A DNA stretch of 64,000 nt, taken from the NCBI GenBank assembly GCA_004322425.1, contig SCVJ01000042.1:1-64000 (forward strand), written 5' to 3'. A program made the position numbers and the translations under genes. Below are positions 25,026-31,360 of this stretch, one piece after another. The first letter of the stretch is position 1, and each line of letters begins with the position of its first letter. The stretch is from Chitinophagaceae bacterium. GTDB taxonomy: Bacteria > Bacteroidota > Bacteroidia > Chitinophagales > Chitinophagaceae. The notes beneath the pieces are model-generated. The model made no database searches. It had not been told where the DNA came from and worked only from the letters and a program-made list of their open reading frames with translations.

Positions 25026-26984
25026 TTAAAAATCAAACCGTACACCACCCGTTGCTTGAAACCCAACTGTGTTAAAACCACTTACCTCCGTGAATTTACA
25101 GTTTGTAATATTTTTTAAATCTGCAAAAATTTTAAGTCTTGATTTATGGAGTTTATATTCCATAAAAACATTCCATAAAGCATAATTTTTTAAGGTTGTA
25201 TTTATAGAAGAAAAAGTTTGAGGATCAAAATAAGCATCCTTTCTTTCGCCAATAATTTGAATACTGCTGCTGATATAAAACTGCTTGGTGACTCTACTTT
25301 CAACATTTATTCCAAAACTGTTTTTAGGACGGCGAAGTAAATTATAAAAAGTTGTATCGAGATTGCTTGACAGTTTTGTAGTGATGGCACCATCAACATA
25401 ATTATAAAATGTTTTTAAAGAAGTGCTTTTTGTAACCGCCCAAGAAAACTCCAATTCTACACCGTAATCATTTTGTTTGTCTTGATTGATATATTGCGAA
25501 ACCCAAGTTGTAGGATTGAAGTAAAAGAAAATCACATCTTTTACATTTCTATTGTAGGCAACTACTCTGCTATTCCATTTATTGTTTTTAGAAAAATATT
25601 GAACGCCACCTTCAATCGTCAATGCTGATTCTGGTTTCAATTTTTTATTGCCATATTCAGAGAAAAGTTGAAATAGTGATGGCGTTCGATAAGCGGTAGA
25701 AAGATTAGCAAAGAGTTTTATTTTCTGATCAATCATTAAGGAAGGGTTAATGGAAAATACAGAATGGGCGCCGTATTCGGAATGAATGTTGACGCGGCTG
25801 CCGGCTTCGAGTGAAAAATTATTGGCTGTCAATAAATTTAAGGCGCCATAAATACTTATTTGCTGTTGCTGTAAACTGTCGTTTGCATAATGCGTTTGAT
25901 TAGGACCGAAAAATCCAACGGAATTATAGGTTTGGTCTGAGTTAGAATTTCTATAATCTACTCCCAACGTAGTTTTTATATTTTTATTCAATAAAAAGTT
26001 TGTGAATAAATCCATAAAATGTTCGGCTCCTGCGTAAGTTCCTTTTGAATAAATATCATATCCATTTCTGCTTTTGGTGGAATCATCCTGAAACGTACGG
26101 TGGATTTTGTTATAATTATACAGTAAATTAAATTTGGTTTTACCAAAAGAAAATTCATTTCGTACTCCCGCTTGAAAATTTTCTTGATTAAAAGTATAAT
26201 CAAGCTCGTCGGTAAAAGCTCCTTGATCTAAATCGCCGTTATTTTTTGAAAATCTTACATAGGGTTTTGCATAAAACTTTTCTTTTATATTAAATCCTAA
26301 TGAAGCGTGTAGATTATTTTGAGTGTATCCATCTTTATCGGGATTTAAGTTATTGCTAGCAGCTTCATTTATTCCATCGGTATTAAGATGAGAATACCCC
26401 AATTCATAATCAAAAAATTTCTTTGCTCCATTGATATTGATTGCTCCGTTGGTTGTATTATTGGTTCCATAACGTAATGAAGCATTTCCTGCTAATGACT
26501 TATTGTTTCCTTTTTTAGTAATAATATTTATCACTCCCGCAAGTGCATCACTTCCGTATAAAGTAGATTGACTTCCTTTTAAAATTTCAATTCTTTCAAT
26601 ATTATCCACAGAAAAATTTCTGATATCAAAATTTCCACCAATACCCGATGGGTCATAAACAGGTACTCCATCAATTGTAATGAGTGTGTGATCTACTCTT
26701 GCTCCTCGGAGATAAACACTTTTATCTTTCCCGGGATTACTGTTGGCACCATTGATATGCAATCCAACTTGCTCAGTTAATATTTGAGCCAAATCTTTTC
26801 CGCCACTTTTCTCCAATTGTTGTTTTGTAATTACGGATATCACTTTTCCCGTAAGTGAAGTTTTGTTGGGAAATTTGTTGGCGGTTACCACTACTTCATC
26901 TAATAGTTTTGTTGTGGAATCGCTCTGCGCTGAAAGTTGACTGCTGATAATAATTGCAGCCAACACAAAAAAATTCTTTTTCAT
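25026..26984 (-). CDS. btuB: TonB-dependent receptor, BtuB-like (probable vitamin B12 uptake)
   Basis: Outer-membrane active transporter of 652 residues. A signal peptide ends near LSAQ. The TonB-box-like LDEVVVTANKF precedes a plug domain with GKVISVITKQQLEKSGG, VDHTLITIDGVPVYDP and ERIEILKGSQSTLYGSDALAGVINI. The rest is a beta-barrel ending GGVRFDF, with the C-terminal Phe of outer-membrane proteins. The size and the B12 riboswitch directly in front of it on the same strand identify cobalamin or cobinamide as the likely cargo. No B12 ABC transporter follows; the next gene on this strand is marC. Name by analogy and context. Confidence 0.88.
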   Translation of the reverse strand: MKKNFFVLAAIIISSQLSAQSDSTTKLLDEVVVTANKFPNKTSLTGKVISVITKQQLEKSGGKDLAQILTEQVGLHINGANSNPGKDKSVYLRGARVDHTLITIDGVPVYDPSGIGGNFDIRNFSVDNIERIEILKGSQSTLYGSDALAGVINIITKKGNNKSLAGNASLRYGTNNTTNGAININGAKKFFDYELGYSHLNTDGINEAASNNLNPDKDGYTQNNLHASLGFNIKEKFYAKPYVRFSKNNGDLDQGAFTDELDYTFNQENFQAGVRNEFSFGKTKFNLLYNYNKIHRTFQDDSTKSRNGYDIYSKGTYAGAEHFMDLFTNFLLNKNIKTTLGVDYRNSNSDQTYNSVGFFGPNQTHYANDSLQQQQISIYGALNLLTANNFSLEAGSRVNIHSEYGAHSVFSINPSLMIDQKIKLFANLSTAYRTPSLFQLFSEYGNKKLKPESALTIEGGVQYFSKNNKWNSRVVAYNRNVKDVIFFYFNPTTWVSQYINQDKQNDYGVELEFSWAVTKSTSLKTFYNYVDGAITTKLSSNLDTTFYNLLRRPKNSFGINVESRVTKQFYISSSIQIIGERKDAYFDPQTFSSINTTLKNYALWNVFMEYKLHKSRLKIFADLKNITNCKFTEVSGFNTVGFQATGGVRFDF

Positions 26985-27095
26985 TTTAAAGATTTTTTAA
27001 GGTGACTGCTCCCGAAATGAAAAAAAGTTGAGATCGTAAAGTCTTTTCGACGATACATTCTCCGCCTTTCACCCGAAAGCAAAATTGAATGTTAC

Positions 27096-27265
27096 ATGAT
27101 TGGGCAGGTCTTCTGGCTTACTCCTCTGTTTAATGCCTTCCCGCATTTAGAAAAAGCAGTGGCGAAGATTAAACAAATTGTAAAGGATCTTACAGCTACG
27201 GGGATAGCGTCAGCATTTGACTGACTTCCCTTTTAATGGCGCATCGGCGCCAACCAAATCGGTAG
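27096..27265 (-). promoter_or_regulatory. Cobalamin riboswitch controlling the BtuB-like receptor
   Basis: Read on the minus strand, the B12 box AGCCAGAAGACCTGCC lies at 27118-27103. Upstream of it are the conserved GCTGACGCTATCCCCG core, a GCCACTG element and a GGGAAGGC element, in the order of the AdoCbl/cobalamin aptamer. The 5' part is GC-rich with a GGCGCC/GGCGCC-type stem near 27240-27255. The 110 bases between aptamer and ATG (26985-27095) should be the expression platform; a short stem ATCGT/ACGAT is visible near 27040-27060. It should repress the receptor when B12 is plentiful. The exact ends are approximate. Confidence 0.93.
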
Positions 27266-27356
27266 CAAAGGAAAGAGATTGACATTGATTTTCCAAAACA
27301 AAAACTACATCAGATTAAAACACTATTTTAGATTTTTATATTCAACCAAATTCAAG

Positions 27357-28691
27357 ATGTCTAAAAATAAACTGAATCTTTTTTCATTAACCATGATTGT
27401 TATCGGGTTAGTAATTGGTATGGGAATTTTTCGTACTTCAAAAGACACAGCAGAAGCTGCGTTAAATCCCTCTATTTTTTTTGGCGCTTGGATTGTGGGG
27501 GGATTGGTTGCTTTTTGTGGCGCATTAACTTATGCAGAAATTGGAAGTCGTTATCCCGTTACGGGCGGTTATTATAAAATATTTTCTTACGCCTATCATC
27601 CATCCATTGCTTTTGCTATTAACTGTATCATTCTAGTTTCCAATGCCGCTTCATTGGCTGGTGTGGCATTGATTGGAAGTGAATATTTAGCACCGCTATT
27701 GTTTAAGTCGGGCGTTACCGATTCATTAAAAGTGATGATTGCTATCGGCTCCATCATTTTATTTTACTTGGTTAATTTAAAAGGTTTACAGCTAAGTTCT
27801 CAAACACAAAATGTGTTGATGATTATTAAAATAGGCATGCTAGTTGTTTTGATTGCTTCCCTGTTTTTTCCATCGTTGTACAATACAGCTCCGCAAACTA
27901 TCATCGATTTAAAAACGGTGGATACGGGCGCCATTCTTTTATCATTCGGTGTGGCTTTGAAAGCTACTTCGTTTACGTATGGTGGCTACCAGCAAACAAT
28001 CAATTTTGGGGGAGAAATTGAAAATCCGAAAAAGAATATCCCCCGAGGAATTTTCATAGGTATCTTAATAATTGTATCACTTTATTTGTTGGTAAGCTAT
28101 GCCTATTATCGAGTAATTGGATTTAATGAACTAAAAGAAACCAGCAGCATTGCTGCAATTGTTGCCGAAAAAATGTTTGGAGCAACAGGAAGGATTGTTG
28201 CTTCCGGTTTATTATTTATTGCAGTACTGGCTTATGTAAATGTTTTATTGCTCAGCAATCCAAGGGTGATGTATGCCATGAGTGAAGATGGAATTTTACC
28301 AGCTGCTTTTAAAAAGAAAGATGAAAAAAGTGGAGTGTTAACAGTAAGCCTGACAGTTTTTGCAGCAGCTTGCATTGTCGTACTTTTTTTTGCCGATACG
28401 TTTGATAAAATATTAAGCTTTACTATTTTTCTAGATTCCATCGGAATGGCAACATCAGCAGCCACCATTTTTGTGTTGAGAAAAAGAACAAAACATTTAG
28501 ACGGAACGGGAATCTATGCTATGAAATTTTATCCGTGGTTACCCATCATTTTTATACTCACTTATTTGTTTTTGGGAACCATCATTACAATCAAAAATCC
28601 GGAGTATGCTTTGGTTGGGCTATCCGTTTTCGCTGCTTTCTTTTTACTTTACTTTGTGGTGCAATTTTATAATAAAATAAAAAACAAGTAG
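27357..28691 (+). CDS. APC-superfamily amino acid permease
   Basis: Polytopic transporter of about 444 residues with twelve or so hydrophobic helices. It opens LNLFSLTMIVIGLVIGMGIFRT, the family's first helix with the GxGIF substrate-backbone motif. FCGALTYAEIGSRYPVTGGYYKI in helix 3 is also typical. I use the ATG at 27357 (MSKNKLN); the longer frame begins with TTG and would run close to the divergent riboswitch. The next gene, a Cys/Met-family PLP enzyme, starts with GTG overlapping its stop (TAGTG), so the pair is translationally coupled. The substrate is likely an amino acid used by that enzyme. Confidence 0.88.
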   Translation: MSKNKLNLFSLTMIVIGLVIGMGIFRTSKDTAEAALNPSIFFGAWIVGGLVAFCGALTYAEIGSRYPVTGGYYKIFSYAYHPSIAFAINCIILVSNAASLAGVALIGSEYLAPLLFKSGVTDSLKVMIAIGSIILFYLVNLKGLQLSSQTQNVLMIIKIGMLVVLIASLFFPSLYNTAPQTIIDLKTVDTGAILLSFGVALKATSFTYGGYQQTINFGGEIENPKKNIPRGIFIGILIIVSLYLLVSYAYYRVIGFNELKETSSIAAIVAEKMFGATGRIVASGLLFIAVLAYVNVLLLSNPRVMYAMSEDGILPAAFKKKDEKSGVLTVSLTVFAAACIVVLFFADTFDKILSFTIFLDSIGMATSAATIFVLRKRTKHLDGTGIYAMKFYPWLPIIFILTYLFLGTIITIKNPEYALVGLSVFAAFFLLYFVVQFYNKIKNK

Positions 28692-29872
28692 TGGATACTT
28701 CTCCTAAAAATGAAATTAGTTTTATCTTAAATGAATTAGCAGAAGAAAGAGAACTGTATTTCAATGCTGTTGCTCCACCTATTGTACAAGCCAGCAATTT
28801 TGCATTTAAAAAAGTTGAAGATCTTCGAAAGGCATTTGACAATGAGATGAGCGATTATCTTTATAGTCGCGGATTAAATCCAACGGTTGATATCCTTAGA
28901 AAAAAATTAGCAGCATTAGATGGCGCGGAAGATTGTTTGGTTTTCAATAGCGGTGCTGCTGCCATTTTTGCCGGTGTATTTGCAAATGTAAAATCCGGTG
29001 ATCATATTGTTTCGGTTAAATCTCCGTACACGTGGGCGCAAAGAATGTTTGATGTTATATTACCTCGTTTTGGTGTAAGCACAACTTATATTGACGGAAC
29101 CAAAATTGAAAATTGGGAAGCCGCTACACAATCGAATACAACTTTATTTTATCTCGAATCGCCCAATAGTTGGGATTTTGCCATGCAGGATTTAAGAGCT
29201 GTTGCTACACTTGCTCAATCAAAAAATATTTTAACTTTTATTGATAACAGTTATTGTACACCCATTTATCAAAATGTAATGGAGATGGGCATTGATGTGG
29301 CCATGCAAACAGCAACAAAATATATTGGCGGACACAGCGATACGTTAGGTGGTGTTCTTTGTGGAAGTAGCGCGATGATGAAAAAAATTTTCAACAGCGA
29401 ATATCTAAATATCGGAAGTGGCATTCAACCATTTAATGCTTGGCTGTTGTTACGAGGATTAAGAACATTATCAATCCGATTAGAAAGAGTTTCAAAAACC
29501 ACCATCGAAGTGGTAGCGTTTTTAAAACATCATCCCAAAGTTGAGTCGATTATTTTTCCATTCGATGAAAGCTTTCCTCAATACGAGTTGGCAAAAAGAC
29601 AAATGAAAGGAGCTTGCGGATTGATAACGATTATTCTAAAAACGAAAAAGCTGGAAGAAATTACTCGTTTCTGCAATTCATTGCAGCATATTTTAATGGC
29701 GGTTAGTTGGGGCGGCTACGAAAGTTTAATCATTCCTAAATGTGCTGGAATTAAAGTTTTGGAATTTAATCCTGAAAACTTGGATCATCGTTACATTCGG
29801 CTTTACGTGGGATTGGAAGAAGCCGATTACATTATTCAAGATTTAGAACAAGCCTTTTCTGCCATTCCTTAA
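28691..29872 (+). CDS. Cys/Met metabolism PLP-dependent enzyme
   Basis: Fold-type I PLP enzyme of 393 residues in the cystathionine gamma-synthase / beta-lyase / methionine gamma-lyase family. Visible are YSRGLNPTVDILRKKLAALDG (phosphate-binding Tyr-Arg region), FIDNSYCTPIYQNVMEMG and the PLP Lys210 in TATKYIGGHSD. The end, NLDHRYIRLYVGLEEADYIIQDL, is family-typical. The reaction cannot be decided from sequence alone. Start GTG at 28691 overlaps the permease stop, so import and conversion of a sulfur amino acid (or similar) are probably coupled. No methionine-biosynthesis genes are near, which slightly favours a degradative role. Confidence 0.88.
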   Translation: MDTSPKNEISFILNELAEERELYFNAVAPPIVQASNFAFKKVEDLRKAFDNEMSDYLYSRGLNPTVDILRKKLAALDGAEDCLVFNSGAAAIFAGVFANVKSGDHIVSVKSPYTWAQRMFDVILPRFGVSTTYIDGTKIENWEAATQSNTTLFYLESPNSWDFAMQDLRAVATLAQSKNILTFIDNSYCTPIYQNVMEMGIDVAMQTATKYIGGHSDTLGGVLCGSSAMMKKIFNSEYLNIGSGIQPFNAWLLLRGLRTLSIRLERVSKTTIEVVAFLKHHPKVESIIFPFDESFPQYELAKRQMKGACGLITIILKTKKLEEITRFCNSLQHILMAVSWGGYESLIIPKCAGIKVLEFNPENLDHRYIRLYVGLEEADYIIQDLEQAFSAIP

Positions 29873-29932: not shown

Positions 29933-31360
29933 ATGAAAGCAAGAATAATTTTCATCCTGTTCGCTTTTTGTTTTTCAATTTCAATAAAGGCACAGGAAAA
30001 ATGGGATTTAAGAAAATGTGTTTCTTATGCCATTGATAATAATATTTCGGTAAAACAAACCGATCTGCAAGCTCGATTCTCCAAATTAAATTATGAGCAA
30101 AGCAAGTTGTCCGTTTTCCCATCGTTAAATCTTTCGGGAAGCGCCGGCTATAGATTTGGACGATCTGAAAATCCAACCACAGGTGTTTTGGAAGACAATA
30201 ATTTTTTAAGTTCCGGATTTAGTTTACAAACGGGTACAACATTGTTTGGCTGGTTTTCCAAAAAAAATCAAATTGAATCTGATCGATTAACAGTAGAAGC
30301 CGATCAAGCACAAATAAAAAAAGTACAAGATGATATTGCGTTAAATGTTGCGGTTGCTTATTTGCAAATTTTACTTTCCAAAGAACAAATCAATCTTTCC
30401 AAAATTCAACTTCAATCAACGAATGAGCAATTTATTAATACCAGAAAAAGAGTGGATGTTGGCTTGCTGCCTGAATTGAATGCTGTTGAATTGGAGGCGC
30501 AATTGTATCGCGATAGTGCAAATTTAATTGCTGCGGAAACAGGTGTGCAACAATTGCTATTGCAAATGAAAGCCATTTTAAATCTTGATGCTAGTGTAGC
30601 TTTCGATGTGGAAACGCCACCCCTCGAAAGAATTCCAATTGATAATCTTGGTGAACTTCAACCGGAAGCAATTTTTTCTTTAGCAGTTATCAACTTACCA
30701 CAACAAAAAATTATTGATTTGCGTTTACAAGCCGCAAAGAAGGAAGTAGTTGCTGCAAAAGGAATGTTGTATCCTTCCATTCAAGCTTTTGGTGGATTGG
30801 GCAGTAATTATGTAAATATTAAAATACCGCAATACGAAATTGGAACGCCTAAAATAACAAGTGCTTTTGTAACAGTTGGCAGTACTTCGTATAATGTTAT
30901 GTCGCCTTCTTTTGTACAAGTTGGCGAAAAAACAATTCCATTGGGAGAGCAGTTGAAAAAAAACTTTGGCCAAAATATTGGCATCAGTATTGGAATTCCA
31001 CTATTTAATAGTGGATCGGCACAAACACGATTAAAACAAACTCAACTAACCGTAAAACAATGGGAGTTGAATAAAGAGCAGGACAATCATAAGTTAAAGC
31101 AAGATGTTTATAAAGCCTATCACGATGCTTTGTCCGCTGTTCAAAAATATAATGCCGACGGCAAAAGTGTGAGCACGGCAAAAAAATCGTTCGAATTTGC
31201 ACAGAAACGATATGATCAAAATCTACTTTCTACTTTTGATTTGATTAACAGCCAGAATAATTACTTACGTTCAAAAATTCAAGCACTGTATTCACAATTC
31301 GATTATGTATTCAAAATGAAATTGCTCGAATTTTATAAAGGGCAAGGCATAAAACTATAA
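29933..31360 (+). CDS. TolC-family outer-membrane efflux channel
   Basis: A 475-residue outer-membrane factor. A signal peptide (IIFILFAFCFSISIKAQ) is followed by two repeated long helical arms with strand pairs: KWDLRKCVSYAIDNNISVKQTDLQ is the family's usual opening, and NIGISIGIPLFNSG marks the second half. Coiled-coil segments include KVQDDIALNVAVAYLQILLSKEQI. TolC trimers form the exit duct of efflux and type I secretion systems. The adaptor gene follows after 17 bases, so these two are partners. The expected permease is absent from the following DNA. Confidence 0.92.
   Translation: MKARIIFILFAFCFSISIKAQEKWDLRKCVSYAIDNNISVKQTDLQARFSKLNYEQSKLSVFPSLNLSGSAGYRFGRSENPTTGVLEDNNFLSSGFSLQTGTTLFGWFSKKNQIESDRLTVEADQAQIKKVQDDIALNVAVAYLQILLSKEQINLSKIQLQSTNEQFINTRKRVDVGLLPELNAVELEAQLYRDSANLIAAETGVQQLLLQMKAILNLDASVAFDVETPPLERIPIDNLGELQPEAIFSLAVINLPQQKIIDLRLQAAKKEVVAAKGMLYPSIQAFGGLGSNYVNIKIPQYEIGTPKITSAFVTVGSTSYNVMSPSFVQVGEKTIPLGEQLKKNFGQNIGISIGIPLFNSGSAQTRLKQTQLTVKQWELNKEQDNHKLKQDVYKAYHDALSAVQKYNADGKSVSTAKKSFEFAQKRYDQNLLSTFDLINSQNNYLRSKIQALYSQFDYVFKMKLLEFYKGQGIKL

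Follow-up and report, generated by a model that had tools for sequence, protein, structure and literature searches.

A class-I-type cobalamin riboswitch probably acting on translation initiation of a BtuB-like receptor gene in a Chitinophagaceae bacterium

The leader of a BtuB-like receptor gene in the window, the whole 64,000-nucleotide stretch of Chitinophagaceae DNA that was analysed, holds a class-I-type cobalamin riboswitch, which probably represses btuB by way of translation initiation and would be a translational OFF switch. At low B12, the P13 hairpin would pair through its 5' strand and its loop with an element, a', about 25 nt upstream of the start codon, and a' would also occupy the first bases of a second element, b. 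When B12 is bound, loop L5 would kiss L13, P13 would be locked and a' freed, and b would pair with b', masking the initiation region. In leaders of the window's type, b:b' would close a hairpin around the start codon and would compete with a second partner, b''. What we infer is that the ligand binds, in which direction the switch works, that it acts on translation, and how exactly the window's leader folds when OFF.

The aptamer was established by an Rfam search. RF00174 was matched on the minus strand at 27273-27086 with 104.5 bits against a cut-off of 31.5 (E 4.2e-25 for the window), and the alignment spans model positions 1-189, a full-length cobalamin aptamer. It was the sole such match in the genome by profile search, and besides it and one tRNA no RNA family scored above threshold in the Rfam search of the whole window. 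The sequence-only reading had placed a cobalamin riboswitch at 27096-27265 of the minus strand and had named a covariance-model search as a check; its interval lies inside the match, and the score bears it out. Its limits omit the first 8 bases of the Rfam match, which resemble a promoter -7 box. The Bacteroidota promoter -7 consensus is TAnnTTTG, and the probable box TTCCTTTG (27266-27273, minus strand) has one mismatch to it. The box recurs at the Rfam edge: of the 62 loci for which upstream sequence was available, 35 had the exact TAnnTTTG, 28 of the 35 starting within -1 to +2 of that edge, whereas mononucleotide shuffles gave a mean of 4.3 loci and a maximum of 13. A possible -33 element, TTTTG (27294-27298, minus strand), is separated from the -7 box by a 20-base spacer, and the spacing is equal in the congener L014. 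The two elements together suggest that the RNA probably starts near 27261. Transcription of the window's leader would then probably start almost at the aptamer, the first bases of the Rfam-aligned aptamer probably being promoter sequence.

The hairpin right after the aptamer, GCUUUCGGGUGAAAGGC (27064-27080, minus strand), has the loop CGGG. The L5 hairpin of the aptamer, GCUAUCCCCGUAGC (27195-27208, minus strand), has the loop UCCCCG, and the two loops are complementary by their letters (CCCG:CGGG). AdoCbl switches in general are described as forming the pseudoknot from a C-rich loop (PMC2258182). Among 190 parsed loci, L5 and L13 shared Watson-Crick runs of at least 4 in 131, a number reached in 0 of 2000 partner swaps, and L13 was CGCG in 8/8 loci having CGCG in L5 versus 15 of the remaining 182. 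Because this complementarity co-varies, the hairpin was identified as P13/L13, the platform half of the kissing loop, and the L5:L13 pairing is regarded as established. The apical loop of P5 was considered as the kissing partner of a further hairpin, H2, and was dropped; it is the C-rich L5 and the CGGG loop of P13 that match and co-vary.

The gene that follows (25026-26984, minus strand) encodes a receptor with TonB-dependent receptor and Plug domains. Its best NCBIfam match was TIGR01779, the vitamin B12 receptor, with 248.5 bits, below the cut-off of 599.7; the RF00174 aptamer precedes a gene of the B12-uptake type, the receptor being assigned by this best match under cut-off. The start codon (26982-26984, minus strand) was placed from the ORF list and the comparison of leaders, and position 26984 comes after a leader of about 100 nt beyond the aptamer, 111 bases past the aptamer end of the sequence-only reading. 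The claim of a long expression platform before a BtuB-like receptor is supported. From P13 to btuB codon 25 the leader folds at -47.5 kcal/mol, and 0 of 200 dinucleotide shuffles folded as well (z -4.0). No Shine-Dalgarno-like stretch was seen by eye before the ATG at 26984. The genome holds the MetH domain PF02965 and methylmalonyl-CoA mutase domains by domain search, and the genome search found neither the MetE domain PF01717 nor CbiC, which suggests that the organism relies on imported B12.

Related leaders were collected from matches in 276 of 294 genomes; the best matches listed were taken, giving 30 loci, and 117 came from further searches. A receptor pattern caught 46 loci. Three of these were metE, and seven (L006, L010, L025, L028, L132, L133 and L136; L025 is nearly identical to L019) fitted neither of two classes; together with L020 and L039 they make up nine unclassed receptor leaders. 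L118 was dropped as having no B12 box by pattern, and L002 was left unclassed, its leader being GC-rich and unlike the others. In 14 of the 41 classed leaders b' is the start codon itself, and in 27, the window included, it lies in signal-peptide codons. The start-codon class was selected by patterns covering a' and the opening letters of b, and the window's class by b.

Element a' (27008-27015, minus strand) was located by folding, a duplex test and leader comparison. It is complementary to the P13 5' strand and L13, with 8/8 pairs including G-U. Between P13 and a' lie H2 (27030-27063, minus strand), a variable hairpin capping the predicted anti-P13 arm, and a U-rich tract (27014-27029, minus strand), part of which, in the predicted ligand-free fold, is paired to the 3' part of P13. 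In the duplex test the first ten P13 bases were matched against the leader, with 60 dinucleotide shuffles each, and z <= -2 was taken as a pass. All 27 btuB leaders of the window's class and 12 of the 14 in the start-codon class passed, with a' at a median distance of 21 and 26.5 bases, respectively, before the start codon. Over all receptor leaders of the window's family 44 of 50 passed, a result favoured by the sorting, which for 41 of these leaders had relied on motifs within or next to a'. The fairer figure is 5/9 for the receptor leaders outside both classes (L010, L039, L132 and L136 failed), since 14 leaders were chosen by patterns including a' and 27 by the adjacent b. Among the other switches of the family one of 56 passed (metE 0/20, nrdAB 0/6, DUF4465 1/23, propeller 0/7), with 53 'other' leaders and one of the seven nrdAB leaders left unscored. 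The difference between 44/50 and 1/56 argues that a' is no by-product of the aptamer; judged by these letters, a' is a common, though not universal, feature of btuB switches in the window's family. Several DUF4465 loci (L012, L016, L031 and others) have GCUGCAU or similar, by eye a possible partner of AUGCGC at the start codon; this stem differs from the btuB kind and comes without an anti-P13 element.

In the alignment of the window's class (26 of 27 rows, L138 omitted), the pairing of a', with its P13 partner a, was kept in 99.5% of cells and that of H2 in 76.6%. No covariation beyond column shuffles of this MAFFT alignment was seen for H2 together with a:a', nor for a:a', b:b' or b':b'' taken singly, a and b being nearly invariant. 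One-sided, partner-swap and codon tests were therefore used in place of column covariation. At 30°C the free leader is predicted to favour the anti-P13 fold over P13 by a mean of 11.6 kcal/mol in the window's class (27 loci) and 8.3 kcal/mol in the start-codon class (14 loci). In this model a preference of 8-12 kcal/mol would fall to the ligand and the kissing loop to pay, or folding would be kinetic.

Element b, GCAGUCAC (27002-27009, minus strand), shares GC with a', and a:a' and b overlap by a few bases only. Its partner b', UUGGCUGC (26956-26963, minus strand), lies in signal-peptide codons 8-10 and makes 7/8 pairs with b. The alternative partner of b', b'' or GCAGUCAA (26937-26944, minus strand), lies in codons 14-16 and makes 8/8 pairs. 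These elements rest on folding, with leader comparison for b and a codon test for b'. The b of the start-codon class is mostly GCUCAU.., which pairs directly with ..AUGAGC. In this class (14 loci, 13 distinct) b:b' had on average 9.69 of 11 pairs, compared to 8.66 with partners swapped, and 0 of 5000 swaps were as high; for the five pairs untouched by the selection letters the values were 3.69 and 2.73, with 1 of 5000 as high. In the window's class b is the same octamer as in the window in nearly all of the 27 loci, and the partners are GUGGCUGC-like signal-peptide stretches. The codon third positions inside b' are G in 27/27 and T in 27/27 loci, the reading frame having been anchored on letters that include both third positions, by which none of the 27 loci was lost. 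The four nearest codons outside b' have third-position entropies of 1.17, 1.91, 1.51 and 1.71 bits; somewhat farther from b', third positions show fair conservation as well (0.38 at -3, 0.69 at +5 and +6). At five of the 27 loci the b' codons carry a change from Ala to Thr, and the b:b' pair is kept. These comparisons establish the b:b' pairing for the family, as a property of its sequences.

Folding at 30°C was consistent with a coupling of b:b' to P13. Forcing P13 raised the mean probability of b:b' from 0.16 to 0.60 in the window's class (higher in 18/27) and from 0.76 to 0.99 in the start-codon class (higher in 10/14), where b:b' is mostly formed already in the free ensemble. The window's own probability of b:b' was 0.00 in both the P13-forced and the free state, because b':b'' wins. 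Its start codon was predicted to be unpaired with a probability of 0.01 in the P13 state versus 0.57 in the free state. The exact OFF fold of the window may thus differ from the b:b' helix of its family, and the general direction of switching is not contradicted. The gain in start-codon opening energy was 2.99 kcal/mol in the start-codon class versus 0.63 kcal/mol for shuffled sequences (13/14 above the shuffle mean, 7/14 above all 12 shuffles). In the window's class it was 1.38 versus 0.98 kcal/mol (16/27 above the shuffle mean, 2/27 above all 12), and as proof for this class the measure was rejected, being indistinguishable from the shuffle control.

The E. coli btuB switch, as described in PMC11162775, has the same aptamer family, the same kind of gene and P13 in the pseudoknot. 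There P14 is a separate stem blocking initiation, as b:b' would be in the window's family, and in the ON state another pairing frees the start region, as it would in the window's family. The E. coli stem masks the Shine-Dalgarno sequence, whereas the window's family would mask the start codon or the hairpin surrounding it. Unlike in E. coli, the freeing strand would be P13/L13 itself, and the stem lies partly in signal-peptide codons.

It is rather unlikely, though by no means negligible, that the riboswitch works chiefly through transcription or RNA decay, with the start-region stems being secondary. The kissing-loop state would then free the U-rich tract that follows H2 to act as a terminator, or admit Rho or a nuclease. 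The tract does lie directly 3' of H2, and according to the TaRTLEt account transcriptionally active cobalamin switches occur in 10/15 Gram-negative taxa (PMC12121620). In a relative, Bacteroides thetaiotaomicron, B12 is reported to lower expression of a locus with a B12 riboswitch about 70-fold, as measured by qRT-PCR (PMC6143338). The repression speaks for an OFF switch; mRNA levels change too, which counts against a purely translational reading. A simple scan of 26900-27400 on the minus strand, however, gave no terminator-like site, and H2 is paired in too variable a manner; H2 as a terminator was rejected on these grounds. Action on transcription or decay also leaves a' and the invariant third positions of the b' codons unexplained. 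A terminator is controlled by the metE corrinoid riboswitch of P. megaterium, which as described in PMC10653944 resembles the window in that CCG of L5 kisses CGG of L13 and part of P13 pairs downstream when free. It uses the 3' side of P13; the window would use the 5' side and L13, and no terminator was found.

An upstream ORF of 25 codons (27058-26981, minus strand) has a Shine-Dalgarno-like GGCGGAG before its ATG, and its stop overlaps the btuB start as AUGA. A leader-peptide relay, in which the switch controls this ORF and btuB is translated by re-initiation, is described for M. tuberculosis ppe2, where an equivalent anatomy with a short ORF overlapping the gene start as AUGA is functional (PMC11260477). 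The ppe2 aptamer is described there as being without the P8-P12 extension (PMC11260477), whereas the window's aptamer matches the full Rfam model and its upstream ORF is not conserved in the genus. The AUGA overlap is kept in 0/5 congeners: by reading, the frame in L014 has the start and runs beyond the btuB start, in L032, L033 and L035 a stop immediately follows the start codon, and in L034 the motif is absent. The ATG moreover sits within the variable H2. Since the ORF is not conserved in the genus, the relay was dropped as highly improbable.

The divergent neighbours, an amino-acid permease (27357-28691, plus strand; ORF, domain and NCBIfam search) and a PLP-dependent enzyme (28691-29872, plus strand), have no established link to the switch. 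The permease ATG at 27357 is 84 bases from the Rfam edge of the aptamer, or 92 from the edge drawn in the sequence-only reading, in agreement with the roughly 90 bases stated there. The enzyme had been called a Cys-Met PLP enzyme, and the fold stands. As to its function, the alanine/glutamate racemase model NF041088 scored best (455.7 bits, cut-off 629), ahead of methionine gamma-lyase TIGR01328 (305.2 bits, cut-off 549.7), both under their cut-offs; a sulfur role is thus doubtful. A control region responding to B12 and shared by this pair and btuB had also been suggested. An RF00174 match lies at most 3 kb upstream in 24 of the 40 named permease loci scanned (out of 80 fetched), all 24 on the opposite strand, and in L019 and L025 permeases of about 65% identity are found some 100 bases away from a switch. 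Against this, the genome's single RF00174 match faces btuB and none faces the permease, L189 has a second TonB receptor gene between permease and switch, and the assignment of the PLP enzyme to sulfur metabolism is unsure. The second receptor gene of L189 (881-2980) ends about 50 bases before the aptamer, and a gap of similar size is seen in other relatives. By eye, the gene after the PLP enzyme in L189 resembles that at 29933-31360 in the window, so that the divergent order, conserved in part of the window's family, may be ordinary synteny. Shared control finds no support, is a guess, and can scarcely be credited.

Outside the window's family 76 of 89 sampled loci were classed, among them 22 leaders that were too short and 7 without a P13 match. 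The a' test was passed by 9/28 receptor leaders (six of family f14, two of f21, one of f28) and by 4/19 other leaders, among which L301 (f21) and L303 (f14) look like misfiled receptors. Like layouts with other letters occur in f14 and f21 and are absent from most other families sampled. In the f14 loci L162, L163, L303, L305, L313, L324, L329, L333 and L334 a CGAAGUUAC-like stretch pairs with GUAACUUC, which immediately precedes the start codon and has a Shine-Dalgarno-like AAGGAG next to it, in the same layout as in the window but with other letters. In the f5 loci L319, L325, L336 and L344 the start codon follows within about 10 bases after P13, and P13 itself may block initiation. No account of this platform in Bacteroidota was found in searches of the open-licence PMC literature; subscription papers may have one.

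Riboswitch expression platforms are best known as maskers of Shine-Dalgarno sequences or as terminators. We tentatively suggest, with some hesitation, that btuB riboswitches of Bacteroidota have evolved a platform that hides the start codon, in which P13 also serves as the freeing strand and the hiding strand extends into signal-peptide codons, so that the riboswitch dictates synonymous codons and even residues of the receptor, and that the layout recurs with other letters in some distant families of the phylum. Bacteroidota are described as naturally without Shine-Dalgarno sequences (PMC6847099). A phylum making so little use of them needs another handle, and this would be provided by a stem in the start region that is coupled to the B12 kissing loop. 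If this is true, the trace of the stem in the signal-peptide codons is directly testable, and btuB leaders in a large bacterial family, many members of which possibly depend on scavenged B12, would gain an annotation that can be checked.
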